The translations under genes and the position numbers were made by a program. Below, one piece after another: positions 34,411 to 54,677 of a DNA stretch of 64,000 bases. The number at the start of each line of letters is the position of its first letter. Position 1 is the first letter of the stretch. The stretch comes from Methanocaldococcus sp. FS406-22 (GTDB lineage Archaea > AGJL01 > Methanococci > Methanococcales > Methanocaldococcaceae). The DNA lies in contig NC_013887.1 in assembly GCF_000025525.1 (NCBI RefSeq), positions 1,658,871 through 1,722,870 on the forward strand. The letters run 5' to 3'. Below the pieces are notes generated by a model. The model was not told the origin of the DNA, did not search any database, and was given only the letters and a program-made list of their open reading frames with translations.

Positions 34411-35357
34411 GTTAAAATAAGACCTCTTGGAGGATGGAAACCACTGCCCCCGAAGGGTTTATATTAGCATAGGTATGGCTGTAGTTAAAATAAGACCTCT
34501 TGGAGGATGGAAACTCAATTGCATCAAGGCATACAAATATGTCTAGTTTTTTCATAAGTTAAAATAAGACCTCTTGGAGGATGGAAACTCTGCATCTTTT
34601 ACTTGTATTGCAGTAATTTTTGAAGTTAAAATAAGACCTCTTGGAGGATGGAAACATATTAACTAAACAACTGTATAAACATGCACGAAGTTGGTTAAAA
34701 TAAGACCTCTTGGAGGATGGAAACTATTTTGGTTCAAACAATTCTGAGAGTCTGAGAATCACATTGTTAAAATAAGACCTCTTGGAGGATGGAAACCAAC
34801 AGTTGGTTTTGGCAAGGCATTTTTCATGTGTAATATTGTTAAAATAAGACCTCTTGGAGGATGGAAACATTGGATGGATAGAGTGGGGAGGCAGAAGGAT
34901 AATTGTGTTAAAATAAGACCTCTTGGAGGATGGAAACTCATCTGTATGTTGCATTTCTAAAATAGCAAAAGAGACTAGTTAAAATAAGACCTCTTGGAGG
35001 ATGGAAACAGCCCAGTTTGCTCCATACTTGAGTATGTTTCCATGTTAAAATAAGACCTCTTGGAGGATGGAAACATAAGTTTTCTCCTAAATTCAAAAAA
35101 TAATTTTTTCTTTTTGTTAAAATAAGACCTCTTGGAGGATGGAAACATGTGACGTTCATCAGGATTATTTCACATTACAGGCAACAAGTTAAAATAAGAC
35201 CTCTTGGAGGATGGAAACACATAAAACCAAATCCACCACCACCAGCACTAAAACCTTTTGTTAAAATAAGACCTCTTGGAGGATGGAAATTATGTTATTT
35301 TTTCGGGAGTCAATAACGGAACTACTGTTAAAATCAGACCTCTTAGAGGTTTTATTC
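34411..35357 (+). CRISPR. CRISPR array: 14 repeats, 13 spacers
   Basis: 31-nt repeats beginning GTTAAAATAAGACCTCTTGG and ending AGGATGGAAAC start at 34411, 34484, 34558, 34625, 34694, 34766, 34838, 34907, 34978, 35044, 35116, 35188, 35260 and 35327. Spacers are 35-43 nt, all distinct. The thirteenth repeat ends in T rather than C, and the fourteenth is degenerate in its last third, marking the leader-distal end on the right; the leader is on the left. No cas genes are within the window, so the array depends on Cas proteins encoded elsewhere. One spacer (35219-35259) is notable for a CCACCACCACC run. Confidence 0.97.
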
Positions 35358-53270: not shown

Positions 53271-53301
53271 GATACGCCTCCCTTAACGGGTTCGGCGTAT
53301 C
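53271..53301 (-). promoter_or_regulatory. Archaeal SECIS element in the fwdB 3' UTR
   Basis: On the minus strand: 8-bp stem GATACGCC/GGCGTATC, then internal loop GAA on the 5' side and A on the 3' side, then CCC/GGG closing a GTTAA loop. This matches the archaeal SECIS consensus (long stem, GAA_A internal loop, three C-G pairs, small loop). It begins 45 bases after the fwdB stop codon. It would direct SelB to the UGA at codon 121. Confidence 0.93.
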
Positions 53302-53319
53302 TTTCTCCAACGTTTATGT

Positions 53320-53338
53320 GAGGCTGGACTTCCTGGCT
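53320..53338 (-). repeat. 3' UTR arm complementary to the fwdB coding region
   Basis: The mRNA here reads AGCCAGGAAGTCCAGCCTC and is the perfect 19-nt complement of the fwdB coding segment at 54269-54287. It starts 7 bases after the fwdB stop and ends 18 bases before the SECIS. See the finding on long-range pairing. Confidence 0.95.
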
Positions 53339-53345
53339 TAAAGAT

Positions 53346-54677
53346 TTAGTTTTTCTTTCCTTCTTTAATTTCTTTAACTTTTTTGAATATCTGTCTTAAA
53401 GTATCTTCATTACTCTTTGTGAATGGAAATGGAGATTTTGTGAATGGCTTTGCATACAAGGTTAAGCCGTCAAATCTATAGAACGTTGCTCCGCACTCCA
53501 TCCCATCAATAACTCCTGGCAACACAACATCTGAAGCATAAGGTGTAGGGCCGGGAGCTATATCGATACAAACCATTGGAATCTCATTTAGATACTTTGC
53601 ACAATCTTTTGGCGTATGCTCCACAATACCAGCTGCAACTACTAAGACGGCATCAATCTCCCTTTCTCTCAAGAGGTCGGCAAAGGTAAACTCTCCAGGA
53701 TTGTATCTTGGATAGCCCCTTGCAAAGTCTATTCCATACGGATAACCATACATGTATGATGCCACTTGGTTAAAGCCGTTAACGTTACAGTGTCCTCTTA
53801 AAGCTCCAATGGCACATTTTGTGTATTTGTTTAACTCTCTAACTAAAGTTAAAACGCATTCGATATTTCTATGCCCTCCTCTTGATGCTGGCAACCCTAA
53901 ACCTCCATAAATCTTTACAAACTTGGCATTCTTCATCCACTCAACCATCTCTTCCATTACTTCGATTGGAACGCCAGTTATCTTCTCAACACTGTGATGT
54001 GGCTTTTTGCCTCTTAGTATTGTGAGGAGGGCAGAGAACAACTCATAGTCTGTGTTTGGCTTTAACTGAACATGCAAATCAGCTAACTTTGCCGTGTCTG
54101 TCTTTCTTGGGTCAACAACTACAATTTTTCTATCCTTTCTTCCTCTTTCAGTCCAGTAACCTCTTGCAAAGACTGAGTATCTACTCATGTGTCTTGGGTG
54201 GGAGTGCATTGGGTTACAGCCCCAGAAGATGATTAAATCAGCTCTATTCTTTACCTCTCCAGCGGTGCAGCCAGGAAGTCCAGCCTCTTGAACCCCCATC
54301 AATGTAGGCCCGTGTCATATTGTCGAGTTTGAATCAACAACTCCCCCTAAGTATTCAGCCATATGCAATCCTACAATGTGGGCTTCGGCAGAAGTCTCAG
54401 CCCCCATAAAGAGGAGAGGTCTTTTGGCATTTGCTAAAATCTCTGCAGCCTTTTCTATAGCTTCTTCCCAGCTAACCTTAACAAATTCTCCATTCTTCTT
54501 AATCATTGGTTCTCTTATTCTGTGAGGGCTGACAATCTCCTTAAACTTTGGAGCTCCCTCTCTGCATGCGTTTTTTACAATTATCTCTTGCTTCTCCTCA
54601 TCATACCAAACCTCTATGTCATCACACGCCATCCCACAGACAGGGCACGTAATGCCCCTAAAAACCTTCATAGCCAT
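53346..54677 (-). CDS. fwdB: FwdB, formylmethanofuran dehydrogenase catalytic subunit, selenocysteine-containing
   Basis: Mo/W-bis-MGD subunit reducing CO2 to formate/formylmethanofuran. 443 residues if the in-frame UGA at 54315-54317 is read as selenocysteine (codon 121), in DSNSTI-U-HGPTLMG, the position of the metal-ligating Cys/Sec in other FwdB. The N-terminal [4Fe-4S] motif is CPVCGMACDDIEV..CREG; the rest is molybdopterin oxidoreductase-like (FWGCNPMHSHPRH, DPRKTDTA, ALRGHCNVNGFNQV). ATG 54677 follows GGGTGAGATTT, overlapping the fwdCD stop region. The SECIS in its 3' UTR supports recoding. Confidence 0.95.
54269..54287 (-). repeat. Coding-region arm complementary to the fwdB 3' UTR
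   Basis: The mRNA here reads GAGGCTGGACTTCCTGGCT (codons for E-A-G-L-P-G plus one base), starting 27 bases downstream of the Sec UGA. It is the perfect reverse complement of 53320-53338 in the 3' UTR. Confidence 0.95.
54315..54317 (-). other. UGA codon for selenocysteine in fwdB
   Basis: Minus-strand TGA (TCA on the plus strand) at codon 121, with uninterrupted FwdB homology on both sides (DSNSTI before, HGPTLMG after). Together with the SECIS and selB this is best read as selenocysteine, not as a stop or a pseudogene. Confidence 0.93.

Follow-up and report, generated by a model that had tools for sequence, protein, structure and literature searches.

An archaeal selenoprotein mRNA very probably folds back to bring its distant SECIS to the recoded UGA

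The window analysed here, a stretch of 64,000 nt from Methanocaldococcus sp. FS406-22, contains a fwdB gene with an in-frame UGA codon, a putative archaeal SECIS downstream of it, and two mutually complementary arms, one located in the coding sequence and the other in the 3′ UTR (Table 1). The SECIS begins 44 nt 3′ of the stop codon, and it has the GAA opposite A internal loop between G-C pairs by which archaeal SECIS elements are recognised (GCC-GAA-CCC...GGG-A-GGC). Since Rfam at gathering thresholds gave no SECIS in the 64-kb window, our own pattern and a covariance model were used for SECIS detection. Elsewhere in the window, a CRISPR array is located at 34411-35290, with 13 matches to the Rfam repeat CRISPR-DR39. 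The fwdB of the window represents a second copy of Sec type, and its identity to the fwuB common in the genus is about 45%. It occurs in 3 of 14 genomes of the same family, yet in both genomes of genus g5, and this patchy occurrence suggests horizontal transfer or loss.

Table 1. Positions of the fwdB features in the window
Feature	Position	Strand	Basis or description
fwdB, formylmethanofuran dehydrogenase subunit B, in-frame UGA	53346..54677	-	ORF with TGA read as Sec; TIGR03129, E 2.1e-185
Stop codon TAA of fwdB	53346-53348	-	
Sec UGA codon of fwdB (STI-U-HGP)	54315..54317	-	Sequence; Sec/Cys site aligned with homologues
Coding arm of fwdB, GAGGCTGGACTTCCTGGCT	54269..54287	-	27 nt after the UGA; 19/19 complementary to the UTR arm
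3′ UTR arm of fwdB, AGCCAGGAAGTCCAGCCTC	53320..53338	-	7 nt after the stop codon, 18 nt before the SECIS
Putative archaeal SECIS, GATACGCCGAACCCGTTAAGGGAGGCGTATC	53271..53301	-	8-bp basal stem, GAA/A internal loop, 3-bp apical stem, 5-nt loop

The initial annotation of this DNA had reported a perfect 19-nt complementarity between the two arms, and every coordinate given for it proved correct, with all 19 positions paired. It had also judged the match to be far beyond chance, which our searches confirmed: the arms, with 930 nt between them, form the best inverted repeat in the 3-kb region, and when up to 3 mismatches were allowed, the arm motif was found solely at the two arms, both in the window (expected number, 0.01) and across the entire 1.77-Mb genome. 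Moreover, when 1,071 nt were folded without constraints, the minimum free energy structure and the centroid structure both held the 19-bp helix together with the SECIS and its GAA/A internal loop. The 5′ flank of the SECIS alone pairs in this way; in scans of the SECIS flanks, no consistent partner for the 3′ flank was found in the ORF for the 3′ UTR cases.

Four orthologues with proteins 94-98% identical were available for comparison, two from the same family (G001 and G010) and two from the other family of the order (G034 and G035). Synonymous differences affect 26-39% of the shared codons among these fwdB genes, and of the 382 codons with an invariant amino acid, 242 in total show synonymous variation. 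The coding arm is identical in the 5 species and sits inside the longest stretch of the gene without any nucleotide change (25 nt at UGA+25); fully invariant 6-codon windows number 3 of 425, and 2 of these 3 lie in this stretch. The stretch from the stop codon to the SECIS has changed in both length and sequence, yet 16-19 nt of the UTR arm are kept in 4 of 4 orthologues, and its core GCCAGGAAGTCCAGCC is kept in all 5 species with changed flanks. Both arms are nearly invariant in this family, so that its covariation is uninformative, and the compensatory changes that the annotation proposed to look for were found instead in two other families, fwuB and sps. A single template-switching event can create a 19-nt inverted repeat, and the annotation had named as its alternative that coding sequence was recently duplicated in inverted orientation in a single strain, without any function. 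The retention of the arms in 5 species of two families with changed UTR flanks speaks against it, as do the covariation, the recurrence in four gene families and the arm-less control genes described below; on these grounds duplication or chance was ruled out, and we give it next to no credence.

We built a SECIS covariance model, ran it on 36 Methanococcales genomes and extracted the DNA around the matches; the sample covers 5 genera of one order and includes closely related species, so that the loci are not independent events. A first scan, in which SECIS flanks were compared with 3 kb for complementarity, gave long arms at several unrelated genes. For the helix search, the stretch from the stop codon to the SECIS was compared with the mRNA from UGA-100 to UGA+200 using an ungapped-helix score. 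RNAduplex applied to 60-90-nt stretches separated true genes from controls, but it over-extended the duplex and made the spacings unusable, and the ungapped-helix score was used instead.

Four families in which the SECIS is about 1 kb or more away carry the helix, namely fwdB, fwuB, hdrA and sps (Table 2). The tethering helix suggested in the annotation gains from this, as both arms are present in other Sec-type fwdB messages and the same predicted architecture recurs in three further selenoprotein families. When the four families are pooled, 56 of 74 loci have a helix of at least 14 bp. The distance from the UGA to the start of the helix is 6-50 nt, and that from the end of the UTR arm to the SECIS is mostly 10-20 nt. 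For almost all strong cases, the helix score exceeds those of other windows of the same gene and of UTR shuffles. In the mesophilic genus g2, the fwuB helix has 9-11 bp, which is non-significant for a single gene, and its position is constant; in the other genera it has 14-26 bp. The hdrA arm is weak in Methanocaldococcus sp. FS406-22 itself, with 12 pairs and a mismatch.

Table 2. Helices of the four families with distant SECIS elements
Family	Helix length and loci	Helix start	UTR arm end
fwdB (window type)	17-19 bp, 5/6 loci	27-29 nt after UGA	14-22 nt before SECIS
fwuB	9-26 bp, 26/26 loci	21-29 nt after UGA	10-19 nt before SECIS (34 in one divergent copy)
hdrA	15-35 bp, 16/22 loci	25-50 nt after UGA	usually 16-20 nt before SECIS
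sps	17-22 bp in 14/20 loci, 10-13 bp in six	6-10 nt after UGA	14-95 nt before SECIS

Arm sequences are unrelated between families, each family having its own. This bears on the idea of an action in trans, in which the UTR arm, processed into a 3′ UTR RNA, would target other messages or other gene copies. Small RNAs derived from 3′ UTRs exist in prokaryotes, which lends the idea some plausibility; however, a different arm in each family does not suit it, and for fwdB and for fwuB, with up to 3 mismatches allowed, the genome holds no complement to the UTR arm outside the gene itself. A trans target was ruled out by this last result, and we regard the explanation as very improbable.

Several loci depart from the common pattern. 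A more distant fwdB orthologue (L153 in genome G022, 73% identical) has its SECIS 164 nt after the stop codon, and no arm was found in it when the stop-to-SECIS stretch was compared with UGA-100 to UGA+200; in the same genome the sps gene (L155) has just a 10-bp arm, which is located before the stop codon. In seven Sec-type fwdB genes (L139, L140, L144, L146, L148, L159 and L177), no recognisable SECIS was found between 2.2 kb before the UGA and 1.5 kb after the stop codon, nor was a convincing arm seen in this set. The short sps helices of 10-13 bp belong to genera g3 and g4 (L152, L155, L157, L160, L173 and L183), and in several sps genes of these genera the 3′ arm is apparently part of the C-terminal coding sequence, outside the UTR.

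Covariation was determined with one row per distinct sequence, giving 14 rows and 18 pairs for sps, and 16 rows and 19 pairs for fwuB. In sps, both sides have changed at 7 pairs (23 such cells), and in fwuB the same is true of 7 pairs (21 such cells); registers were picked by best pairing, which biases these counts towards structure, though the coding side was anchored to the UGA. The cell counts and covariation scores of both families were matched by 0 of 500 shuffles, and pairing was lost when the registers were slid. One sps position is G-C, U-A or C-G depending on the species, and one fwuB position appears as U-A, C-G, G-C and A-U. In hdrA the paired site itself has moved: it lies 35 nt after the UGA in Methanocaldococcaceae, mostly 25 nt in genus g3, 29-31 nt in g5 and 50 nt in one genome, and despite the moved coding site, the UTR arm mostly stays 16-20 nt from the SECIS. 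What is conserved in hdrA is the predicted geometry, not the sequence, and since this geometry is kept while the site moves, protein constraint or a sequence-specific binding protein would be hard put to explain it.

Genes expected to lack the helix were scored in the same way. Among 529 ORFs without a Sec label, the mean helix score was 22.7 (s.d. 4.0; 99th percentile, 34). Two unlabelled ORFs scored above 36, and both are actually selenoprotein genes that the filter had missed, hdrA (L190) and fdhA (L131), the latter being the published case of a 5′ UTR SECIS. No UTR arm was found in the Cys paralogues of this genome (L030) and of two other genomes, which scored 20-26.5; at the arm site of these paralogues the peptide is unchanged and the synonymous codons differ. 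No arm was found in vhuU/fruA, where the SECIS is 66-87 nt from the UGA, or in most hesB-like genes, where it is about 180 nt away. One hesB-like gene, L134, is an exception, with a UGA-SECIS distance of 175 nt, a 13-bp arm ATTTGGGGAAGGG and a score of 35.5; the copies of other genomes are without the arm.

Our best reading, to which we assign a probability of roughly three-quarters, is that a long-range intramolecular helix would bring a remote SECIS to a distance of about 25-65 nt from its UGA. The end of the UTR arm nearer to the SECIS would pair with the end of the coding arm nearer to the UGA, an orientation in which the SECIS would emerge on the UGA side of the helix, and nearly all of the coding sequence downstream of the fwdB UGA would be looped out. 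Between the UGA and the SECIS of fwdB there would then remain about 45 nt of single strand (27 + 18 nt), against about 1,016 nt otherwise, and across the families a path of about 1,000-1,500 nt between UGA and SECIS would shrink to a single-stranded one of mostly 25-65 nt. As the ribosome reaches the UGA, the SECIS, its reading factor and SelB with Sec-tRNA would be presented locally; a ribosome past the UGA would open the helix, and the helix would hence re-form between passing ribosomes. From the capacity of the arms to pair, their conservation, the covariation in two families, the geometry and the absence in controls, we infer that the helix forms in the cell and aids Sec insertion, with positioning as the reason. 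In Methanococcales, this predicted tether is the usual arrangement for a SECIS separated from its UGA by about 1 kb or more. Placement is not tight everywhere, as the arm-to-SECIS distance of sps reaches 95 nt.

The predicted stabilities fit a dependence of helix length on temperature. For the 19-bp fwdB helix, the predicted value at 85 °C is -14.9 kcal/mol; for an 11-bp mesophile helix it is -16.7 at 37 °C and just -3.8 at 85 °C. Such values agree with longer helices being required at higher temperature, growth temperatures being taken here from the genus grouping.

The annotation had considered that the helix either delivers SelB or slows the ribosome, and our data favour positioning over slowing. 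As a roadblock, the helix would slow or stall the ribosome at the UGA and SelB would gain time against the release factor, the closeness of the SECIS being incidental. With its start 6-50 nt after the UGA, the helix would lie close to the point at which mRNA enters a ribosome standing at that codon, or past it, and the helix is predicted to be stable at high temperature, both of which suit such a role. For this purpose, however, a local hairpin would suffice, and there would be no need of a partner 1 kb away that adjoins the SECIS; moreover, in fdhA1 the partner flanks a SECIS in the 5′ UTR. The spacing to the UGA, from 6-10 nt in sps to 25-50 nt in hdrA, is too loose for a roadblock, and the close-SECIS genes vhuU/fruA do without the helix. 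Because the spacing is so variable and the close-SECIS genes lack the helix, a pausing role is less likely than positioning, and we consider it improbable.

Slightly less probable again is a role in mRNA stability or selenium-dependent turnover, with the duplex exposed when ribosomes stop at the UGA and opened on readthrough. The coding arm sits after the UGA, so its state would indeed depend on readthrough, and added arms cut reporter mRNA about 3-fold in Methanococcus maripaludis (PMC11881835). Such a role leaves unexplained, however, why the UTR arm is mostly 10-20 nt from the SECIS and why the helix is absent in close-SECIS genes.

Positioning of a SECIS by base pairing has itself already been proposed for fdhA1. 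According to Peiter et al. 2025 (PMC11881835), the 5′ UTR SECIS of fdhA1 has flanks of 7 and 10 nt (M. maripaludis) complementary to the ORF, the proposed repositioning would put the SECIS 43 nt after the UGA, and the complementary flanks are conserved in Methanococcales and longer in thermophiles. The present finding is a broader 3′ UTR version of that proposal. Here too, a SECIS flank is complementary to the ORF downstream of the UGA (19 bp in fwdB), the placement from SECIS to UGA is similar (about 45 nt here vs 43 nt there), and the pairing is conserved in Methanococcales and longer in thermophiles (fwuB; temperatures taken from the genus). Unlike fdhA1, the SECIS is in the 3′ UTR rather than the 5′ UTR, one arm of 9-35 bp on the 5′ side of the SECIS pairs where both flanks do in fdhA1, and four other gene families are concerned, with compensatory changes shown. 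The initial annotation had regarded the idea as undescribed in archaea, which does not hold for the 5′ UTR SECIS of fdhA1; for the other four families, the accessible parts of Peiter et al. 2025 (PMC11881835) contained no mention of such arms (fwdB, fwuB, hdrA or sps), and no mention of such pairing was found in the accessible parts of a 2026 review and an Asgard selenoproteome paper, in a search that covered mainly literature outside subscription.

Counter-evidence to the tether, and to a strict requirement for it, comes from two reporter results in a mesophile. A SECIS at a distance of 520-679 nt is functional in a reporter that has no designed tether (PMC9622424), and activity did not change when a 5′ SECIS was given artificial arms, a 2-fold increase being seen only when calculated per mRNA (PMC11881835).

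A comparable use of distant pairing is known from the tombusvirus PRTE-DRTE, where stop-codon readthrough needs long-distance RNA pairing (Cimino et al. 2011, PMC3234231). There, as here, a 3′-terminal RNA element pairs over a long distance (kilobases in the virus) with RNA just after the recoded stop; the system is otherwise different, being a virus with eukaryotic ribosomes, plain readthrough without SECIS or Sec-tRNA, and unrelated sequence, so that the analogy is one of working only. In bacteria, the SECIS hairpin is part of the coding sequence and is bound directly by SelB. The tether would give the archaeal SECIS a neighbourhood similar to that of a recoding signal immediately 3′ of the UGA, though the archaeal signal stays in the UTR. 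The eukaryotic SECIS, which is bound by the protein SBP2, shares with the archaeal one its 3′ UTR location and its action over about 1 kb, and we know of no general RNA tether of such kind for it. In archaea, unlike in eukaryotes, no SBP2 homologue is known, nor is a SECIS-binding factor, and binding of a SECIS by archaeal SelB was not observed (PMC11881835). A wider proposal would be that Sec recoding in archaea relies generally on an RNA tether, the mRNA supplying the proximity that an SBP2-like bridging protein gives in eukaryotes, with helix length tuned to growth temperature; we offer this tentatively and think it rather doubtful. If true, it would help to account for the failure to find a SECIS-bridging protein in archaea and for the inability of their SelB to bind the SECIS by itself.

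A conserved, covarying helix would offer a direct physical answer to the question of how an archaeal SECIS acts on a UGA a kilobase off, and through it one published oddity, fdhA1, would be turned into a general pattern that covers most of the distant SECIS elements in one order of archaea. The helix would also account for selenoprotein genes keeping codons after the UGA beyond the need of the protein. It gives a new feature for spotting selenoprotein genes and SECIS elements, its knowledge may help in designing recombinant archaeal selenoprotein genes, and the tether is testable with the existing Methanococcus reporter.

Two further observations concern vhuD and its neighbourhood. In vhuD, whose second UGA is about 237 nt from the SECIS, GAGAGGGTTAGGTTC can pair with GGACCTAACCCTCTC over 15-16 bp (L092, 3887-4500, and other loci), 45 nt past this UGA and just ahead of the SECIS. 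This pairing is present in genera g1 and g5 (hyperthermophile-type) and weaker or absent in others; it joins two coding stretches, and protein constraint may be its cause. In four Methanocaldococcaceae genomes, hdrA (L102, L114, L118 and L133) has an in-frame Sec UGA and no recognisable SECIS in its own 3′ UTR, where only a short hairpin remnant is seen. The nearest SECIS to these hdrA genes is that of vhuD, about 0.5 kb beyond, and hdrA and vhuD may share one SECIS in these four genomes.
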